Shown: one piece after another, positions 6,151-43,229 of the stretch | Numbering within the stretch: position 1 is the first letter of the stretch | Layout: each line of letters opens with the position of its first letter | IMG/VR virus record: IMGVR_UViG_3300030520_000050 | Coordinates: 1-43,229 of that record | DNA: 43,229 nucleotides | Direction: 5' to 3' (one strand) | Origin: a virus | Position numbers and translations under genes: made by a program | The notes under the pieces: model-generated | The model's input: only the letters and a program-made list of their open reading frames with translations | Databases searched by the model: none | What the model was told of the DNA's origin: nothing

Positions 6151-6387
6151 TCACAGGTCCTCTTTGTAGGGATAGCCTTGCACCTGGATGTAGAGATCCT
6201 TGCCCACCTCCGTCAGCACGGCGTGCTGGGCGCGCATGGCCGCCAGCTTCTTGGGGTCCCTCTCGGACACCATCGCGTGCTCGAGATCCTCGAGCTGCTG
6301 AGCGACATCGACCATCTTCTTCTTCAACTCCTGGCCGTCGCCGACCAGGTTGGAATACTTCCGCAGTTCGCGGGTGAACTTCGACAT
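6151..6387 (-). CDS. Small coiled-coil protein next to terminase small subunit
   Basis: 78-aa, highly charged protein whose residues 20-60 form a heptad-like helix (QELKKKMVDVAQQLEDLEHAM). This suggests a dimeric coiled coil. ATG 6387 overlaps the stop of the terminase small subunit as TGATG; an in-frame GTG lies one codon upstream. No known family is recognised. The location suggests a partner in packaging, but that is inference. Confidence 0.65.
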   Translation of the reverse strand: MSKFTRELRKYSNLVGDGQELKKKMVDVAQQLEDLEHAMVSERDPKKLAAMRAQHAVLTEVGKDLYIQVQGYPYKEDL

Positions 6388-6998
6388 CACCAGGTTTCCT
6401 CTTCCTCGAGACCCTCGTCGGGTTCGTCATCCGGGACTATGGTCAGTTCCCGGCCAGATGTCAAGGCTGAAGCGTCATGGTCGATCGTGATGCCGTATGA
6501 CCCCAGGAGCTTGGTTGGATCCAGCCCGAGCTTCTCAGCCATCGCCTGGATGTCGGCGATCTTCTGCTCGTCCGTGACGGTCACCTCGTGCTTGACCACG
6601 TGGGTCTGGCTCGAGCCGAGGCCCGTCCGGTTGAGGACCATCTGGATCCCGCGGAGCTTGAGCATCTTACTGGTGGTCGGATCCTCCAGGATCTTGTGCA
6701 GTTCACTAGCAGCCAGGATAGCCGTGGCGTGCAGCCGGCGCCGGGCCTCCTCGATCATGGCCAGCCCGATCCGCTCGTCATGGGCCAGCCGCCAACCGGT
6801 CACCCGGAGCGTCTCGGTGTCGCCCTTGTAGCCGGCTTTGCTGGCGGCCCGGTGGTGGTCGAGCCCGCCCTGGTCCACCAGGTGGAAGACGAAGGCCCGC
6901 TGGCGATCGGTGAGGGCCAGCATGTCGGGACCGACCTCGTAATCCCGGAGGGCGATCTCCTGGCGGGGCGGGTTATGGGCTCTGACCATCTTTGGCAT
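6387..6998 (-). CDS. terS: Terminase small subunit
   Basis: 203-aa protein. An N-terminal helix-turn-helix region (ALTDRQRAFVFHLVDQGGLDHHRAASKAGY, about residues 28-57) is followed by TLRVTGWRLAHDERI and a long helical oligomerisation segment. This is typical of terminase small subunits that bind the pac or cos site and hand the DNA to TerL. The C-terminus is very acidic and ends EEEETW. ATG 6998 has AGGAGG ten bases upstream and a CTTGACA promoter at 7023-7051. It is the first gene of the left late block, four genes before terL. Confidence 0.85.
   Translation of the reverse strand: MPKMVRAHNPPRQEIALRDYEVGPDMLALTDRQRAFVFHLVDQGGLDHHRAASKAGYKGDTETLRVTGWRLAHDERIGLAMIEEARRRLHATAILAASELHKILEDPTTSKMLKLRGIQMVLNRTGLGSSQTHVVKHEVTVTDEQKIADIQAMAEKLGLDPTKLLGSYGITIDHDASALTSGRELTIVPDDEPDEGLEEEETW
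6436..6464 (-). promoter_or_regulatory. Possible internal promoter inside terS
   Basis: On the minus strand, CTTGACA (TTGACA at 6464-6459) is followed after 17 bases by CATAGT (6441-6436). The predicted start is about 40 bases before ATG 6387. It lies inside coding sequence, so chance is a real possibility, but spacing and bases match the intergenic set. Confidence 0.3.
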
Positions 6999-7022: not shown

Positions 7023-7051
7023 TAACTAGCGTGTCGGCTGGGGTTTGTCAA
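7023..7051 (-). promoter_or_regulatory. Candidate late promoter upstream of terS
   Basis: On the minus strand, CTTGACA (TTGACA at 7051-7046) is followed after 17 bases by TAGTTA (7028-7023). A start near 7016 gives a short leader carrying AGGAGG before ATG 6998. The spacer and -10 include GCTAGTTA, close to the CTAGTG half-sites found just to the right. It would drive the packaging and head genes with host RNA polymerase. Confidence 0.5.
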
Positions 7052-7242
7052 GGGACCGGGGATTGTTCCACTTTCGTAAGGACCAGGAGAAATTCCAGGA
7101 AAATCGCGCGAAAGCGGTGATTGGGGGGCAAACTACCGCGCGCATCGCATTCGCCCCCCACCCGGCACCCACCCCGGTTCATCGCGCTAGTGTATCCATA
7201 GTGGTCAATAGTGTGTATGCTAGTTGAGCATCCACGGGTTGA

Positions 7243-7271
7243 ACACTAGCAAACTAGTGTGCGCACTAGTG
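7243..7271. repeat. Overlapping CACTAG/CTAGTG inverted repeats (operator-like)
   Basis: ACACTAG (7243-7249) and CTAGTGT (7254-7260) form a perfect 7-bp inverted repeat with a 4-base gap. CTAGTG (7254-7259) and CACTAG (7264-7269) form a second 6-bp inverted repeat with the same gap, sharing one arm. CACTAGTG at 7264-7271 is itself a palindrome. More half-sites lie at 7186-7191 and 7371-7376. Equal 10-base phasing of the arms is typical of cooperative repressor binding. Confidence 0.6.
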
Positions 7272-7274
7272 TGT

Positions 7275-7291
7275 TGTATTACGTGCAATAC
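7275..7291. repeat. TGTATT/AATACA inverted repeat
   Basis: TGTATT is followed after a 5-6 base centre (ACGTGC) by AATACA, directly right of the CTAGTG cluster. It could be part of the same operator complex or a small cruciform. Evidence is limited to the symmetry. Confidence 0.35.
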
Positions 7292-7461
7292 ACGATGCCA
7301 GCAACAGGGGTGACAGTGCATTGTAATCATTGAACACCTGACAACTTAGTGTGCGAGCGTGTGTGATACGCTAGTGAATGACGATACAAACGATACACTT
7401 TGTTAGTTGCCTAACACAACAACTAATGCGATATTGGCGTGGTCAAGCAGGAGATACACTA

Positions 7462-7623
7462 ATGGACACTCACGTAATCGCGATGCACCCAAACTTCCTG
7501 TGGATGCAATCAGGGATACACATGCCAGCAATCGACACCTCCATACTAATCTATGGCGCTTTCGTGGGCGTGTTGCTATTGGCCAATGTCGTCTACCTAT
7601 CCCGCACGAAGGGGAGACATTAA
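7462..7623 (+). CDS. 53-aa single-pass membrane protein, first early gene
   Basis: Starts MDTHVIAMHP. A hydrophobic span at residues 26-44 (ILIYGAFVGVLLLANVVYL) is followed by the basic SRTKGRH, which suggests an inner membrane protein with its C-terminus in the cytoplasm. ATG 7462 is preceded by AGGAG at good spacing. The stop overlaps the next start as TAATG. It is the first of a run of overlapping early genes, so it may act in host take-over or exclusion. No family is recognised. Confidence 0.65.
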   Translation: MDTHVIAMHPNFLWMQSGIHMPAIDTSILIYGAFVGVLLLANVVYLSRTKGRH

Positions 7624-8293: not shown

Positions 8294-8381
8294 TAGTTGC
8301 ACCAGCTGGCTGGTGTAGCTATGGCCATTAGTTTCTGCCAGAGTGGCAGAAACTAAATCATCCGATGGCGGATGATTTAGT
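8294..8381 (+). promoter_or_regulatory. Three tandem hairpins between early genes
   Basis: Three consecutive stem-loops. The first is CACCAG/CTGGTG around CTGG near 8300-8315, extended by ATAG/CTAT. The second is a perfect 12-bp stem TTAGTTTCTGCC (8328-8339) with GGCAGAAACTAA (8345-8356) and a 5-base loop. The third is a perfect 13-bp stem ACTAAATCATCCG (8352-8364) with CGGATGATTTAGT (8369-8381) and loop ATGG. The second and third share ACTAA, so the full stems cannot form together. No U-tract follows, so this is not a standard terminator; a processing site, an RNA switch or a DNA-binding site is possible. Confidence 0.65.
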
Positions 8382-10488: not shown

Positions 10489-10528
10489 TAAACTAGTGTT
10501 GGACAATGCCACTTCACTAGTTTATTAT
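10489..10528 (+). promoter_or_regulatory. Early promoter with flanking 10-bp inverted repeat operator
   Basis: TGGACA (10500-10505) and TATTAT (10523-10528) are separated by 17 bases, a near-consensus sigma70 promoter and the best plus-strand one seen. TAAACTAGTG (10489-10498) and CACTAGTTTA (10515-10524) form a perfect 10-bp inverted repeat with a 16-base centre. One arm lies just upstream of the -35 and the other runs into the -10. The arms carry the CTAGTG half-site of the 7.2-kb array. A bound dimer would occlude RNA polymerase. Confidence 0.68.
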
Positions 10529-10548: not shown

Positions 10549-11286
10549 ATGCTGCACAAGAAAGGTTGGGTCAACTTATCCCAACAGAAGCACCTGGGGG
10601 GAGGGAGGAGCGCAGCGACCGACCGATACCCCAAACCCACAATTCTACCCAAACATGGGACGGTTCAAAATGAACGCAGTTCGGGCTTTCGTCAGTCAGA
10701 AGAAGCGACCACACCCTACGGGGAGCCTCTTCTTCCCTCCTCTGGCGATGTAGGCTCTTTTTCTAACATTACAAGAGGAGTTTCACTAACAATGGAAAAT
10801 AATGGTGATTTCTGGCGTGACCTGTTGACCGCCGGCACGCCGCGCGAGACCATGGACCAGATCAGCAAGCGGGTCATCGCCTCGATCGGCGAAGCGCCTC
10901 CGGGCGTCAAGATCAGTTCCACGGAGCTGGGCTATAAACTCTGGCCAAAGGAGCAGCGGGTGCCCAAGGCGGACAAGGACGTGATCATGCACCTGTTCAC
11001 GGTGCTGCGCCGGCTGGCCAAGGACCGGCTGAAGGATATGTGCCGCGAGGAGTGGATCCCTGGTGGTCCCTCGGGCCATCGCAAGGCGTTCGTATGGTTC
11101 AATCCCAACGGTCCTGATGGGCTGGTGGAACCGATTGGGGGCGCTGAAGTCCGGGTGGGCGCGAATTTCGCTCGCAGGATCATAAAAGGTTTGCGGGGGG
11201 AATACGATCCGGTTTATATGGCCATGTTGATTAGTGAGTGCGAGAAGGCATTTGGCCAGCTCGCACCGGAAGAGGAGCAATGGTAA
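10549..11286 (+). CDS. Hypothetical early protein with two possible starts
   Basis: From ATG 10549, with GAGGAG seven bases upstream and just after the predicted transcription start, the frame stays open for 245 aa. From ATG 10792 (MENNGDFWRDLL, with AGAGGAG upstream) it gives 164 aa that look more protein-like. The shared part is helical and basic. It contains ISSTELGYKLWPKEQRVPKADKDVI then LRRLAKDRLKDM, which could be a winged-helix DNA-binding region, but no family is certain. It ends PEEEQW, providing the ribosome binding site for the next gene (TGGTAATG). A terminator-like hairpin lies between the two starts, so either two products or a regulated leader is possible. Confidence 0.6.
   Translation: MLHKKGWVNLSQQKHLGGGRSAATDRYPKPTILPKHGTVQNERSSGFRQSEEATTPYGEPLLPSSGDVGSFSNITRGVSLTMENNGDFWRDLLTAGTPRETMDQISKRVIASIGEAPPGVKISSTELGYKLWPKEQRVPKADKDVIMHLFTVLRRLAKDRLKDMCREEWIPGGPSGHRKAFVWFNPNGPDGLVEPIGGAEVRVGANFARRIIKGLRGEYDPVYMAMLISECEKAFGQLAPEEEQW
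10723..10780 (+). promoter_or_regulatory. Attenuator-like hairpin and competing Shine-Dalgarno pairing
   Basis: GAGCCT (10723-10728) pairs with AGGCTC (10752-10757) and is followed by five T, like a weak intrinsic terminator with a long loop. The loop contains CTCCTCT (10737-10743), a perfect complement of AGAGGAG (10774-10780), the ribosome binding site of ATG 10792. The two pairings compete, as in an attenuator or translational switch. Confidence 0.45.
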
Positions 11287-11716: not shown

Positions 11717-12355
11717 ATGAAAACGCATAAGATTAGTTTATCGAAATCGGCCGATGGCCGGTCACACTACCAGCCGGATGAAGGTAGTCGGGCTTCTCAG
11801 TCTCCCCGTGGTGCACCAGGAGGAGCGGGATCCGACAGGCCACTTGCTTCCCTGGGAGAGTGCCCGGTGCGCTTTTCGGAAAAACTCAACTTTGTTATGG
11901 GGCACTATACGAACGAGTTTGGAAAACCCCAGAAACACAATTTCAACTGTTGCCTGGTCACGGAAGGTGTGCGAGCCTCCCCGGACTTGGCCCGCGTGTT
12001 ATGCGGACGGAAGATCAATGGCAAGGCTATTTGTTTCACTGGATCAGGTCTGACGATCACAGTGGATCGGTGGCGTGCGGAATATGTCATCACAGATGAA
12101 AATGTGCTTTTTGACATTGTGCGCTTTGATGATGGATCACTGACCGTAGACGAACGGCATCCTCGTCGCGCGTGGGCACAATTTCTACGTGTAGTAGAAA
12201 TCACGCCTAACTCCCCAGAACGAACAGCCCAGGTTAATAGCGCTCGTCGCACACTCAAAATCGAGCGTGATGCTGGGCGAGCCCCTCCTGCTAAAAAGCG
12301 GGACCGGTTGGCGGTATTACGTCGCGAGCTTAACAAGCGAGGCTGGGCGGCATAG
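11717..12355 (+). CDS. Hypothetical protein, last gene of the early block
   Basis: 212-aa protein. A Ser/Gly/Pro-rich, probably disordered N-terminus (to residue 50) is followed by a beta-rich core (ICFTGSGLTITVDRWRAEYVITDENVLFDIVRF). It ends with a strongly basic C-terminal helix (KKRDRLAVLRRELNKRGWAA). The basic tail suggests nucleic-acid contact. ATG 11717 has AAGGA upstream; a TTG two codons earlier is possible. Its last 26 bases overlap, tail to tail, the end of the primase-polymerase gene on the other strand. Confidence 0.65.
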   Translation: MKTHKISLSKSADGRSHYQPDEGSRASQSPRGAPGGAGSDRPLASLGECPVRFSEKLNFVMGHYTNEFGKPQKHNFNCCLVTEGVRASPDLARVLCGRKINGKAICFTGSGLTITVDRWRAEYVITDENVLFDIVRFDDGSLTVDERHPRRAWAQFLRVVEITPNSPERTAQVNSARRTLKIERDAGRAPPAKKRDRLAVLRRELNKRGWAA

Positions 12356-14228
12356 TCCGCCACATGAGCTGCCCGGTTTGCTGGCCGTCACAATAGGCGG
12401 CCAGCTTGTCCTTCCCGGCCTTGTTAAGGTAGGATACCGCGCTACGTTTGTTTCGTTCGTTCTCGTCAACATCAGTCCCCTCGGTGAGGGGAAACAGTAA
12501 GGAAACCAGAACATGAGTGGTAAGAGCATTGTTCCCGTCGATCCCAGCTTTGAATTGCAGAAGCGTCCGGGCTATGTTGTTTTCGCCGAGCGGGCTGTTA
12601 CCCTCGACGGTTTCGCGGAAATCTTTGGCCTGGATCTCAGAGGGGACCAGGCTCCCACCGATCTGAACCATGCGGAGATACCAGGGGGTGGCACGCTCTT
12701 CCGCGTCCTTGTGCTTCTCAACCCGGAGACGGGTCACAAGTTTCTGGCGCTCGGTTTCGAGGGCTATCACAGTATCAAAACCCGCGTAGATGGCACTGGA
12801 CCCACGTATACCTCGCTCGCTTTCTTTCCCGCTATGGAGCACGGCGAGGATGGCGCAACCAAAGGTCTCACGTAAATGATCACAGAAGGCGACGAAGGCC
12901 CCGGCATCACGAGCATCATTTTCGTTCGTGCCTGCCATCATCTTGGCACCAGTATCGACTACTATCATTGCGACAGGAGCGCGGATAGCGTCGCTCGTCT
13001 CTCTAATGCTATCACAAAACTCCTGACGCGCGGTTTCGTCCTCACCCATCGTCGGGCCGTTCATAACAAAGAAACCTGGTATTTCAGGCGTGGACCTGGC
13101 CAGCCGCCACGCTGAGCGGCGCTTGGTCATCAGGTTGTGCTTCCCCTCCAGGGCAACGTAGAAGACAAGCCCGGTGCGGGTGGGTGAACCAGCGAACGTG
13201 GAGACACCCGCTGCAACACTCAGCGCGAGATCGAGGGCGACGAACGACTTGAAACTCCCGCTCGGTCCATAGATGATGGCGGTCTCCTGGTCTGGTAGTA
13301 GGTTTGGGATCAACCATGTCGGCTCCGGGAGATTGTCCATCTCCGTTTCGTTATACGGTTTGAAACGTGGACGCGGCTGAGATGCGAGCAGAGCCGGGAT
13401 ATGAATGGCGAAACTTTCCTGGGGGCGCCCCGTCGCGTCAATCCCCACGGTATTTTCAGCATATTTGTAGGCATTTTCGATCTTCCTTTCGAGGAACGCA
13501 TGATACTTTGGCCCTACCGGTGCGCAGTCGTAGTGGACCCGCATGGTGTCGAGGGTCATGCTGGGCGACAAGCCCAGGTCTCGCAGCTTGCATGCCACGG
13601 CGATCGTCTTGCTGTCCGCCCCTTCGCCCTGGCGCACGGGGGCCAGATGCTTCAGGTAGGTTACTGCCCGCTCGATGTTGTGCGGGAGATCTAACTCTAT
13701 GGCGCTGGCCTCCGCGCGCGGGGCTACTCGCTTCAGCGTTGCCAGTGTGGCTGGTATCCATGGGGGCAGGTTGGCCAACGGCAGAGCGGCTTGGAGCCGG
13801 TAGCACCCGGCGTCCGTAGATGAAGGTGGCACGAGCACATACGATCCGATGCCTCTTGTGTCGATTTTCGAGCCCAGTTTATGCTGGCTTGCTCGCAATT
13901 CGCCGCGGAAATAGAGGTGATTGCCTCCACGAGGCGTGGACACTGTGTGCGTATCCACTCGTCCGTGCTCATGCTCGAGACTGGCCCACTCTTCAAGTCC
14001 GGTCCATTCATCCAGGTCAACCACGCTGACGCCAGAAGGCTCCAGAGAGATGGCGACGTTGTAGGTTGGGTCAGCAGTCCACCAGGCGGTGATCCGGTCG
14101 TGGTCTCGTGTGGCATCATGGAAACCTCTTGGGGTTGCCGGCCCCTTCTGGCCGGGGAGACAGGGAAAAATGTGGTATCCTTCGGACGCGTATTTCAGGG
14201 CCGCGTCGAGCAGTTCGTTACTGGCCAT
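12330..14228 (-). CDS. Bifunctional primase-polymerase / RepA-like helicase
   Basis: 632-aa fusion. The N-terminal PrimPol domain has metal ligands in VVDLDEW (D71, D73), TPRGGNHLYF with H104, and KIDTRGIGSYVLVPPS (121-136). The C-terminal RecA-like ATPase has Walker A GPSGSFKS (321-328), Walker B MIVVDTGAKM (D426) and the LHSGKESERGIRGSSAI segment of RepA-type hexameric helicases. It would prime and unwind DNA at the phage fork, ahead of the family A polymerase. ATG 14228 follows GGAGG; 25 further in-frame codons upstream would overlap the promoter. It lies on the opposite strand to every other replication gene and has its own promoter at 14247-14275. Confidence 0.93.
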   Translation of the reverse strand: MASNELLDAALKYASEGYHIFPCLPGQKGPATPRGFHDATRDHDRITAWWTADPTYNVAISLEPSGVSVVDLDEWTGLEEWASLEHEHGRVDTHTVSTPRGGNHLYFRGELRASQHKLGSKIDTRGIGSYVLVPPSSTDAGCYRLQAALPLANLPPWIPATLATLKRVAPRAEASAIELDLPHNIERAVTYLKHLAPVRQGEGADSKTIAVACKLRDLGLSPSMTLDTMRVHYDCAPVGPKYHAFLERKIENAYKYAENTVGIDATGRPQESFAIHIPALLASQPRPRFKPYNETEMDNLPEPTWLIPNLLPDQETAIIYGPSGSFKSFVALDLALSVAAGVSTFAGSPTRTGLVFYVALEGKHNLMTKRRSAWRLARSTPEIPGFFVMNGPTMGEDETARQEFCDSIRETSDAIRAPVAMIVVDTGAKMMAGTNENDARDAGAFVAFCDHLRETFGCAILAVLHSGKESERGIRGSSAIYAGFDTVIALETERQKLVTRLRVEKHKDAEERATPWYLRMVQIGGSLVPSEIQAKDFRETVEGNSPLGENNIARTLLQFKAGIDGNNALTTHVLVSLLFPLTEGTDVDENERNKRSAVSYLNKAGKDKLAAYCDGQQTGQLMWRTMPPSLAC

Positions 14229-21524: not shown

Positions 21525-22757
21525 ATGGCCGACAGACTGACCGACGCGGAATGTGTGACCGCACTCAAGGCGCGCAAGACCCAGACGCCTAAGCTGGCCG
21601 CCGCGTCTCTGGGGATCACTCCAGCCGTCCTGCGCGAGCGCATCCGCCAAGGGGAAGCCAGAGGGCTCTCCGCGGAGACCCCGATCAACTCGCAGGAAGA
21701 CAAGTGGAAGGCTGAAGCCAGCCGGCTGCGGACAGAGAACACCCTGCTGAAGGCACACCGCGACACCGCGGAGAAGATCCGCGAGGAAGTGTATGGGCTG
21801 GCCAGTCTCGAGGTGGAGACCCCGACGTGGGCCTTGCCACCGCGGAGCAAGAAGGGCCTTACTGGTGTGCCGATGACCATCTGGTCGGACTGGCACTGGG
21901 GCGAGACCGTGCAGAAGGCCCAGGTGGGAGGCGTCAATGAATTTAACCAGCCTGTCGCAGAAGCGCGTGTGCGTCGCCTGGTGGAAACGACGGTCTCTCT
22001 ATGTCGTGATCACATGGTCAACCCGGTATATCCAGGTGTCGTTGTGGCTCTTGGTGGAGACATGATCACGGGAGCGATCCATGAAGAGCTCGCGGTCACC
22101 AACTGGGGCACCACCCAGCAGCAGTTTATACAGGTGCAAGAAGCGTTGGAATGGGCGCTCTTGCAGATGGCATCGGCGTTTGGACGTGTTTTCGTGCCAT
22201 GTGTTGTTGGCAACCATGGACGGGACACCATCAAGCCACGCTTTAAGAACAGGGTGTTCCAGAATTATGAGTGGAACCTCTACATGCAACTGGCCAGAAC
22301 CTTCTCAAAAGACAAGCGGTTCCGCTTCTTAGTCCCGGAGGACACAGATGCCCACTTCAAGATCTACGATCACCGCTTCTTGCTTACTCACGGTGACACC
22401 CTCGGTGTTAAAGGAGGCGACGGGATCATCGGAGCACTCGGCCCGATCGCTCGTGGCGCTACAAAAGTTGGCCGAGCAGAGGCTCAGATTGGCCGAGATT
22501 TTGATACCTTGCTCATGGGGCACTATCACACTTACATTCCCAGCAACGACGCCGTTCCAGTCATCGTCAATGGAGCCCTCAAGGGATACGACGAATACGC
22601 CCGAAGTGCCCTCCGCGTCCGCTACAGTCGTCCCTCTCAAGCTCTATGGTTCGTTCACCCCGACCACGGAATAACCGCGCAGTGGCAGGTGTTCCTTGAC
22701 GAGCGTAGGAAGGCTGTGCCACAAACACAATGGTTGACATTTGAAGGAAAAGTGTAA
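21525..22757 (+). CDS. Calcineurin-like metallophosphoesterase with N-terminal HTH
   Basis: 410-aa protein. Residues 1-50 look like a helix-turn-helix (PKLAAASLGITPAVLRERI), followed by a coiled coil (about 58-90). The metallophosphatase core has WSDWHWGE (about 120), LGGDMITG (about 175), VGNHGR (about 228), LTHGDTLG (about 288) and MGHYHT (about 330), so all dinuclear metal ligands are present. It may be a nuclease (Mre11-like) or phosphodiesterase; the DNA-binding front end and the neighbours favour a DNA substrate. The start overlaps no gene; the ribosome binding site is ACGGAATGG just inside the upstream gene. Confidence 0.85.
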   Translation: MADRLTDAECVTALKARKTQTPKLAAASLGITPAVLRERIRQGEARGLSAETPINSQEDKWKAEASRLRTENTLLKAHRDTAEKIREEVYGLASLEVETPTWALPPRSKKGLTGVPMTIWSDWHWGETVQKAQVGGVNEFNQPVAEARVRRLVETTVSLCRDHMVNPVYPGVVVALGGDMITGAIHEELAVTNWGTTQQQFIQVQEALEWALLQMASAFGRVFVPCVVGNHGRDTIKPRFKNRVFQNYEWNLYMQLARTFSKDKRFRFLVPEDTDAHFKIYDHRFLLTHGDTLGVKGGDGIIGALGPIARGATKVGRAEAQIGRDFDTLLMGHYHTYIPSNDAVPVIVNGALKGYDEYARSALRVRYSRPSQALWFVHPDHGITAQWQVFLDERRKAVPQTQWLTFEGKV

Positions 22758-23197
22758 TGAAGCGCAAGATCTATCTGATCGGCAGCCTCCGCAACCCTGA
22801 CATCCAGGACCATGCGGAGTTTTTCCGGGAGGCTGGCCACGAAGTGTTTGACGACTGGTATGCGGCCGGAGAGAAAGCGGATGACGCCTGGCAGGCTTAC
22901 GAGCAGACCCGTGGTCACGGCTACCTCGAGGCCATCAACAGTGTCCACGCGGTAGCCGCGTTCGACGTGGATAAGACCTGGCTCGACTGGTGCGACACCG
23001 CGATCCTGATCATGCCGGCGGGCAAGTCCTGTCACCTCGAGCTGGGCTACATCATTGGCCAGGGGAAGCCCGGCTACATCCTGATGCCGAAGGAGCCCGA
23101 ACGATACGACCTGATGTATCGGTTCGCCACCGGGGTCTATCACGCACGCACGAACTTACTGTGGCAACTCGAGGCGGGGATTGGCAATGTCCGATGA
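22757..23197 (+). CDS. Nucleoside 2-deoxyribosyltransferase-like protein
   Basis: 146-aa protein with IYLIGSLRNP at the N-terminus and MPAGKSCHLELGYIIGQGKP near residues 90-110. The HLELGY Glu is in the position of the catalytic nucleophile of nucleoside 2-deoxyribosyltransferases. Family members move deoxyribose between bases or hydrolyse (deoxy)nucleosides and nucleotides. The ATG overlaps the previous stop (TAATG). It is next to dCMP deaminase and a dNTP hydrolase-like gene, so a nucleotide-pool role is likely. The substrate cannot be told from sequence. Confidence 0.78.
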   Translation: MKRKIYLIGSLRNPDIQDHAEFFREAGHEVFDDWYAAGEKADDAWQAYEQTRGHGYLEAINSVHAVAAFDVDKTWLDWCDTAILIMPAGKSCHLELGYIIGQGKPGYILMPKEPERYDLMYRFATGVYHARTNLLWQLEAGIGNVR

Positions 23198-23660
23198 CAT
23201 CTTCTACTTGCGGAAGGCACGGACATTGGCCGCGGCTTCTGACGATCCTTCGACCAAGGTGAGCGTGGTGATCGCTACTGAAGACCACAAGCTGGTCTTC
23301 GGGATCAACTATATCCCAGTGCCCCGGATCATGGAGACTATGTCGCGGGACGAGAAGCTCGCGCTGGTGGTCCATGCCGAGATGGGGGCCATCTGCACGG
23401 CAGCCAGGTATGGCGACAAGCTCAACGGCTCGACGCTCTACATGGTCGCCTACGGGGTTAAGGAGAGGCAATACTGGGGTAGCGCGCCTTGCCTCGAGTG
23501 TGCCAAGCATGTGATCGCCGCTGGCATCAAGCGGGTCGTGACGATCGGCGGGTTACCAGTTCCCGACCGCTGGTTTACGAGTGTGAGCAAAGGCTTTGAC
23601 CTACTCCAGGAAGCTGGTATTCTCTATACGGAGGTTTTCTATGCCCAACTTACCGACTGA
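23187..23660 (+). CDS. Deoxycytidylate (dCMP) deaminase
   Basis: 157-aa zinc deaminase. HAEMGAICTAA carries the His ligand and catalytic Glu, and PCLECAKHV the two Cys ligands. The N-terminal KARTLAAASDDPSTKVSVVI is typical of the dCMP deaminase family. It converts dCMP to dUMP, feeding dTMP synthesis. No thymidylate synthase was seen in the window, so the host enzyme may complete the path. ATG 23187 lies inside the end of the previous gene. The 3' end overlaps the next gene by 20 bases. Confidence 0.88.
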   Translation: MSDDIFYLRKARTLAAASDDPSTKVSVVIATEDHKLVFGINYIPVPRIMETMSRDEKLALVVHAEMGAICTAARYGDKLNGSTLYMVAYGVKERQYWGSAPCLECAKHVIAAGIKRVVTIGGLPVPDRWFTSVSKGFDLLQEAGILYTEVFYAQLTD

Positions 23661-24093
23661 CGCTAAACTTCGTAAACTCTTTCCAATCGGAACCGGCGTC
23701 CTGGATTACTTCCCGGATGCTCTGGCCGCGGTGGCGGAAGTGAGCCGGATTGGGAACGATCAGCACAACCCCGGCCAGCCAATGCACTGGTCCCGCGGGA
23801 AGTCCATGGACCAGGCGGACACTCTGATCCGGCACTTCCTCGAGCGTGGCACGCGGGACACGGACGGCACACTGCATAGCGCCAAGGTAGCATGGCGTGC
23901 GCTGGCCCTCCTGCAACTTGAGATCGAAGCAGCGGCGACAGCGCCGAAGCCAGATCTGCTTGGGGAGGTCACGCATGATCCCCTGATGCCCGCGAACCCG
24001 GAGCCATGGGTGCATGTGAAGTTCGTGGAGGGGCCGCTGGGCGGCGATCTGCACGCCGAGCCACCGCCGGCTATCGACCAGCGAGTTATTTGA
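23641..24093 (+). CDS. dATP/dGTP diphosphohydrolase-like protein (DUF5664)
   Basis: 150-aa protein. The segment DAKLRKLFPIGTGVLDYFPDAL, AEVSRIGNDQHNPGQPMHWS, and the later helix with TLHSAKVAWRALALLQLEIE match the N-terminal domain of dATP/dGTP diphosphohydrolases, an all-helical MazG-related group. It probably hydrolyses purine dNTPs. It has GGAGG seven bases before ATG 23641. The C-terminal 40 residues are Pro-rich and unstructured. It is the last plus-strand gene and ends overlapping the opposing gene by 8 bases. Confidence 0.78.
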   Translation: MPNLPTDAKLRKLFPIGTGVLDYFPDALAAVAEVSRIGNDQHNPGQPMHWSRGKSMDQADTLIRHFLERGTRDTDGTLHSAKVAWRALALLQLEIEAAATAPKPDLLGEVTHDPLMPANPEPWVHVKFVEGPLGGDLHAEPPPAIDQRVI

Positions 24094-26392: not shown

Positions 26393-26421
26393 GATATGCG
26401 CCCAGTCACTAGTCATGTCAA
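26393..26421 (-). promoter_or_regulatory. Candidate promoter of the lysis/envelope cluster
   Basis: On the minus strand, CTTGACA (TTGACA 26421-26416), 17 bases, CATATC (26398-26393). The -35 overlaps the stop of the 72-aa tail gene, and the predicted start is about 15 bases before ATG 26371. The spacer contains ACTAGTG, the half-site of the 7.2- and 10.5-kb operators. Confidence 0.55.
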
Positions 26422-42529: not shown

Positions 42530-43229
42530 TTACGGGGTGATGTCGGCGCCGGTCGTGTCGGCGGCGAGAATTTGGATGACCTTGCCCAACTGGGTCCGGG
42601 TCGCGCCATACATGTGCTTCGCGTAGATCTGCCAGGGCTGGCTCGACAGGTCGATACGGCGGTCCATCTGGACCTCCATGTCTTTCCACATGCCGAGATA
42701 CATGCCCGACTTCGCCCAGGCGTAGCACTGACGGAGGCTCGCGGTGCCGGGCGACAGACGCTCGGAAACGGTGATGTCAAAGCCAAGGAACTGAGTGAGC
42801 TTGCCGTTGGTCAGGATCGGACGATCGGCGAACTCGGTGCTCACCACCTGGACCTGTTGCAGCAGATCGCTCTCCTGCTTGGACCCAATGAGCAACGACA
42901 GCGGATCGGTGTCCACGTCAACGTGGTAGTGACGCATGATGCGGCGTGCTTCGATGATCTTGGCCACCGTCAAGCCAGTGGAGGCCGAAGATCCGAAGGT
43001 GTCGGACACGCCATACGTGGTGGTGGAAGCCGTCTCGCCCGTCAGGTTCGCGGCGTCCTGGCCGGTCTGCGCGGTGCCGAAGAAGGCGGCGATGATCGCG
43101 TCATCCCAGTCACGTCCGAACGCCATCGCGGTGTTCTGGGCATACATGGACTTCGGATCGACGACCGTCTGGTATTCGTCGAACTGATCGACCAACTGCG
43201 GAAGCTCGCGCTCTTGTGGGAACACCCAC
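42530..43229 (-). CDS. Major capsid protein (5' end cut by window)
   Basis: C-terminal 232 residues; the frame is open to the right edge, so the N-terminus is missing. It contains MYAQNTAMAFGRDWDDAIIAAFFGTA, IEARRIMRHYHVDVDTDPL and the late segment SGMYLGMWKDMEVQMDRRIDL, with the beta/alpha pattern of an HK97-fold coat protein. It resembles the capsid family of BPP-1-like podoviruses, though that match is from memory. It would form the icosahedral shell with the scaffold at the other end of the contig. It is followed by a hairpin and a putative decoration gene. Confidence 0.83.
   Translation of the reverse strand, partial: WVFPQERELPQLVDQFDEYQTVVDPKSMYAQNTAMAFGRDWDDAIIAAFFGTAQTGQDAANLTGETASTTTYGVSDTFGSSASTGLTVAKIIEARRIMRHYHVDVDTDPLSLLIGSKQESDLLQQVQVVSTEFADRPILTNGKLTQFLGFDITVSERLSPGTASLRQCYAWAKSGMYLGMWKDMEVQMDRRIDLSSQPWQIYAKHMYGATRTQLGKVIQILAADTTGADITP

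Follow-up and report, generated by a model that had tools for sequence, protein, structure and literature searches.

An array of CTAGTG half-sites beside the terminase small subunit gene of a soil phage: a probable early-control operator region

What is the function of a dense cluster of CTAGTG and CACTAG hexamers that separates the late from the early genes of a soil phage? The stretch of DNA analyzed here (the window) comprises positions 1-43,229 of IMG/VR record IMGVR_UViG_3300030520_000050 and derives from a podovirus-like phage. Contig L008 connects window position 43229 to position 1 via ~636 further bases, indicating a circular or permuted genome of ~43.9 kb. The minus strand carries the late genes (terS, TerL, portal, and others), and the plus strand carries the early genes. 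The first late gene, the terminase small subunit gene (terS), occupies 6387-6998 on the minus strand, and the first early gene past the array (7462-7623, plus strand) encodes a membrane-like protein of 53 aa. The replication genes encode a SNF2 helicase, a DUF2800 exonuclease, an ssDNA-binding protein, and a family A DNA polymerase. A primase-polymerase with an AAA_25 helicase is encoded by a large minus-strand ORF within the early block (12330-14228), and because this gene occupies the minus strand, the ORFs read across it on the plus strand are spurious. A run of nucleotide-pool genes at 22757-24093 (plus strand), encoding a nucleoside deoxyribosyltransferase-like (weak), a dCMP deaminase-like, and a dATP/dGTP diphosphohydrolase-like protein, possibly serves base modification or pool control. 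Rfam and tRNA searches gave no matches. A portal-based search of sequenced bacterial genomes (genome_contigs) returned no relative, and it therefore supplied neither a prophage nor a host name.

The array core spans 7187-7376 (the array and all inverted repeats are given without a strand). A preliminary description made from the letters had counted at least five copies of the half-site in 190 bases. The exact count is six, at 7187(+), 7244(-), 7254(+), 7264(-), 7266(+), and 7371(+), compared with 0.26 expected in 7186-7376, and none of 2000 dinucleotide shuffles reached six. Because CTAGTG was picked post hoc, a fairer figure is how often any 6-mer occurs at least six times: this happened in 3 of 2000 shuffles of 7031-7460, and in 23 of 2000 when the 190-bp stretch alone was shuffled. 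The tetramer CTAG is strongly avoided genome-wide (19 seen vs ~156 expected from composition), and 8 of these 19 fall within 7026-7374 (Poisson ~2e-13, uncorrected for word choice). Two inverted repeats with a 4-base gap overlap each other exactly as had been described: ACACTAG-CAAA-CTAGTGT at 7243-7260 (core CACTAG-CAAA-CTAGTG, 7244-7259) and ACTAGTG-TGCG-CACTAGT at 7253-7270 (core CTAGTG-TGCG-CACTAG, 7254-7269), the second of which is overlapped by the palindrome CACTAGTG (7264-7271). Degenerate plus-strand copies occupy 7199-7224 (TAGTG at 7199 and 7209, CTAGTT at 7220), and another near-copy, TAGTG, lies at 7347. The first four TAGs (7188, 7199, 7209, and 7221) are spaced 10-12 bp apart, that is, by one helical turn. 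Two inverted repeats of other types follow, TGTATT-N6-AATACA (7275-7292) and TGTTAG-TTGC-CTAACA (7401-7416). In other words, a short dyad site is present repeatedly and in a cluster within an early control region, as in phage repressor operator arrays of the lambda or L5 type.

Could the cluster reflect chance or the relaxed composition of non-coding DNA? CTAGTG is not enriched genome-wide (14 seen vs 11.6 expected), and part of the local excess is post hoc, as the 3 of 2000 shuffles indicate. Nine of the 14 CTAGTG sites fall in the 12% of the genome called non-coding (p 6e-6), but outside the array the proportion drops to three of eight (p 0.06), and thus the non-coding enrichment is mostly due to the array itself. 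However, 8 of the 19 CTAGs crowd into 350 bp, the motif recurs at 10.5 kb, and relatives have arrays in the corresponding position, which makes chance a very improbable explanation.

The flanks of the array are also as initially described, with the late minus-strand promoter and terS on one side and the first early gene on the other. The promoter-like sequence before terS (TTGACA-N17-TAGTTA, 7023-7051, minus strand) has a CTAGTT (7024-7029) overlapping its -10 element. On the early strand, the array yielded no strong sigma-70 promoter, and its best score there ranks 37th genome-wide. Reading CTAGTG itself as a -10 element was rejected, as most sites have no -35 element at 16-18 bp. At 51% GC, compared with 60% for the genome, the array region is comparatively AT-rich, and the cumulative GC skew has its minimum around 5-8 kb, features that would suit a replication origin in which the hexamers are iteron-like sites for an initiator; the tandem units of some relatives (such as three 32-bp repeats in L041) would also suit it. 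However, the skew turns just where the coding strand switches, the primase-polymerase gene is 5 kb off, and the motif recurs at a promoter. Furthermore, the sites are mixed in orientation and unevenly spaced, in contrast to the regular direct repeats in one orientation of an iteron array. An origin is quite unlikely on these grounds.

Recurrence of the half-site at a promoter near 10.5 kb had been claimed and proved to be strong. A perfect 10-bp inverted repeat, TAAACTAGTG-N16-CACTAGTTTA, with the same half-site as the array, lies at 10489-10524, and its arms enclose a promoter (TGGACA-N17-TATTAT, 10500-10528, plus strand) that has the top plus-strand sigma-70-like score of the genome. The chance that any two of the eight CTAGTG sites outside the array would pair within 30 bp is 0.02. 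Sites overlap an early promoter at 10.5 kb; the array itself showed no strong sigma-70 promoter. Among viral contigs, the array and the 10.5-kb operator were found elsewhere in near-identical copies only. A further recurrence had been proposed at 26.4 kb, where a promoter-like sequence (TTGACA-N17-CATATC, 26393-26421, minus strand) does hold a single CTAGTG in its spacer (26407-26412). The site is weak and unconvincing as a recurrence, however, and it probably does not belong to the array system. Control of a lysis promoter by the same phage regulator, which the preliminary description had suggested alongside early control, is unsupported because there is one half-site and the other CTAG sites nearby fall inside a called coding frame; the early operator array is the part of that suggestion which is best supported.

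Which protein would recognize these sites? One possibility is a host regulator, for example a TrpR-like protein. The CTAG cores of the repeat at 7246/7254 (CTAG-N4-CTAG) have a spacing of 8, which resembles that of the trp operator, and no canonical phage repressor is present in the window. This is nonetheless very unlikely, because the other sites do not have a spacing of 8 and a shared host factor leaves unexplained the unrelated motifs found at the same place in relatives.

On the best-supported reading, the sites probably form an operator array for early control and serve a regulator that the phage itself encodes, with binding inferred from the sites. The 7.18-7.43 kb intergenic region would be the early control region of the phage. 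A phage-encoded, probably dimeric protein would bind the repeated ACTAGTG half-sites cooperatively, using both the palindromes and the helically phased copies, and would regulate, most likely repress, rightward early transcription. The same protein may also touch the -10 element of the late terS promoter. Likewise, it would bind the inverted repeat at 10.5 kb and regulate the transcript carrying 10792-11286; of all genes this one is the likeliest to encode the binder, which would then control its own expression.

The putative regulator gene (10792-11286, plus strand, with an alternative start at 10549) encodes a 164-aa protein with a predicted winged helix. The promoter inside the inverted repeat serves the transcript carrying 10549/10792-11286, so that the window has an operator-like element at the transcript of its own candidate regulator; for an XRE gene, such an arrangement was seen in relative G007 only. 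Homologues of 10792-11286 were found in three relatives, namely G001, L104 (E 1e-14), and L079 (E 1e-10). No homologue of 10549-11286 was found in isolated phages, and 10792-11286 had no Pfam match. A single-sequence fold was useless (pLDDT 42), and AlphaFold on four sequences gave the order H-E-H-H-E-E, which fits a winged helix, with a core pLDDT of ~80-89. The solved folds nearest to this model were mostly winged-helix proteins (LmrR, E2F-DP, FoxO, Zur, and SlyA), the matches being weak (Z ~6), and Foldseek returned none with E below 1e-3. The winged-helix assignment from this model is suggestive only. L079 has three copies of its array motif, CTTAGC, outside its array, and one of them falls on the start codon of the homologue (p 0.03). 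No array motif was seen at the homologue in L104 or G001. The product of 10792-11286 is the best available candidate for the array binder, a tentative assignment that may well be wrong.

It had been stated earlier that no repressor gene is recognizable, and none of the XRE, S24, RHH, or HTH_17 families was found in the window; nor was an integrase found among the window genes scanned. The accompanying suggestion of an unknown early protein as the binder, with 10549 among the examples named, agrees with the predicted winged-helix candidate. Between the alternative and the likely start of this gene is a leader of ~240 nt (10549-10791) whose G-rich (GGGGGGAGGGAGGAG) and C/T-rich stretches could pair, and a control role for it is possible.

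Is the array conserved in related phages? A portal alignment yielded 80 loci, nearly all with 56-68% portal identity, and the divergent relatives number ~70. The array is unchanged in near-identical contigs, which were also the only close relatives found via the early proteins, and these contigs are uninformative on selection because they are identical over the array. The CTAGTG motif was conserved in none of the divergent relatives. G001, a complete relative whose ends overlap by 127 bases (TerL 53%, portal 61%, and DNA polymerase 51% identical), shares the layout of the window but lacks the CTAGTG array, though it has a homologue of the candidate regulator. The early block of G001 also encodes a beta-solenoid (YdcK-type) protein with many 17-residue repeats (L028:163-777). 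Thus, the motif itself is confined to near-identical copies, whereas the position of an array is kept and its motif is lineage-specific.

Directly adjoining the array, between it and terS, is a G-rich element, ATGAACCGGGGTGGGTGCCGGGTGGGGGG (7154-7182, minus strand; family consensus AAWAGACCGGGGTGGGGTGSCGGC). The element is nearly invariant among relatives (L033-L107), with ACCGGG invariant within it, and it lies 124-185 bp before the terS start in most relatives in which terS was placed. Among stretches upstream of terS, 8 of 25 had clustered short motifs at p<=1e-8, compared with 42 of 2477 elsewhere. Likewise, 6-mer clusters at p<=1e-6 were present in 7 of 18 300-bp stretches abutting the G-rich element (the 18 include L029, which is nearly identical to the window) and in 38 of 2142 others (Fisher 3e-8). 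The comparison set in these tests was all other windows, coding and intergenic alike, rather than intergenic DNA alone, so that some of the enrichment may be a general property of non-coding DNA. Several relatives had no 6-mer cluster. The DNA just upstream of terS is a hot spot in which short sites, most of them palindromic, form arrays with a different motif in most lineages. The motifs include TTACACGTGTAA (L093) and GCTACTGACCAGTAGC (L034), both palindromic, as well as TTACATATGTAA (L082), ACTGTACAGT (L099), and TATGCA (L067). L104 has three ATCAC-N6-GTGAT palindromes, all near terS. Extreme forms are three 32-bp tandem units with the palindromic TTGCGAATCATTCGCAA in L041 (2940-3055) and CACATG repeated at steps of 48, 48, and 47 bp in L053 (6660-6878). 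The motif CGCAATAATGTTGCG of L068 is the same in its relative L057, and their TerS proteins are 73% identical. A cluster in Microcystis phage MJing1, GGTCAGGGT, differs from the window array in composition and place.

The location of these elements raises the alternative that the array is a packaging site of the cosB or pac type bound by TerS, with the G-rich element as the cut site read by the large subunit. Adjacency to terS across the family holds for the G-rich element and in part for the array, and both lie between the divergent promoters. The change of array motif between lineages would be explained by divergence of TerS, pairs of which are mostly 25-45% identical and less conserved than TerL and portal. 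However, the window motif recurs away from terS, around the 10.5-kb promoter, and the G007 motif recurs at the promoter of an XRE gene. Furthermore, no contig end was found at the G-rich element, though metagenome contigs are poor evidence on this point; the window closes on itself via L008, which fits permuted or circular DNA, and the best matches of TerL include P22-like headful phages. A packaging site is unlikely, and what keeps it in consideration is mainly the G-rich element. A packaging or origin role of the element itself is possible. It probably acts as DNA and not as RNA, because it lies between divergent promoters. Hairpin and G-quadruplex forms were rejected, as each occurs in some members only. 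The element had 23 matches in genome_contigs, mostly chance matches in high-GC genomes; three genome-bin contigs had both a match and a window-like phage gene, namely L126 (TerL), L139 (TerS), and L125 (PrimPol).

Evidence bearing on the operator reading comes from G007 (L067), whose array is TTATGCATAA. Its 44.9 kb hold nine TTATGCA/TGCATAA sites. Three of them are in the array, three (p ~1e-4) are at the promoter of L067:2763-3254, a gene of the XRE type (HTH_3 E 2e-4), and one precedes a sliding-clamp-like gene. This distribution, as read from the sites, is the pattern of an autoregulated repressor. The XRE genes of G001 have no motif in common with its terS-upstream region. Across the relatives, the array keeps its position while its motif changes, presumably along with the regulator.

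How does this arrangement compare with known systems? The immunity regions of lambdoid phages (OR-OL of lambda, 434, and P22, with CI/Cro) resemble the window in that dyad sites are grouped within a divergent control region. Their operator sequence differs between relatives along with the regulator (heteroimmunity), which is similar to the lineage-specific arrays here, and their regulator gene is autoregulated, which G007 fits since its XRE promoter carries the array motif. Unlike them, the window has no XRE/S24 repressor and no integrase among the genes scanned, its array lies beside terS and not between cI and cro, and its candidate binder is a predicted winged helix. In cluster A mycobacteriophages (L5, D29), many copies of one short site are present, and the lineage-specific motif diverges with the repressor; D29 is a lytic derivative that lost the repressor and kept the sites (PMC6550527, PMC5712189). 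The window shares with them a short site in many copies and a lineage-specific motif. Their stoperators, however, are asymmetric 13-bp sites scattered genome-wide (PMC6550527, PMC5712189), whereas those of the window have dyad symmetry and lie mainly in one region. The cos and pac regions (lambda cosN-cosB, P22 pac) also lie directly upstream of terS and combine an invariant with a variable repeated element; in contrast to them, the window motif recurs at a distant promoter.

As a general kind, phage operator arrays of changing specificity have precedents in the lambdoid phages and in cluster A mycobacteriophages (PMC6550527, PMC5712189). What is new here is the position of the array beside terS, its invariant companion element, and the winged-helix candidate. 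A broader and rather speculative idea, on balance improbable, is that the G-rich element and the wholesale-replaced array motif form a fixed two-part cassette between the divergent early and late promoters of a soil podovirus family. Such a cassette would determine the specificity of superinfection together with the early/late (or packaging) decision, and it would be read by an XRE repressor in some lineages and by an undescribed winged-helix family in others. The analysis yields a defined control region, a defined candidate regulator of an undescribed family, and ~20 relatives for matching motif with regulator, which opens to direct testing the question of how regulatory specificity in phages can change when the site of control does not move.

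A separate observation concerns the early region beyond the array. Two overlapping perfect hairpins with 13-bp arms (TTAGTTTCTGCC.. and ACTAAATCATCC..) lie at 8328-8381, between two early genes. They are mutually exclusive, and the pair looks like a terminator/antiterminator switch.
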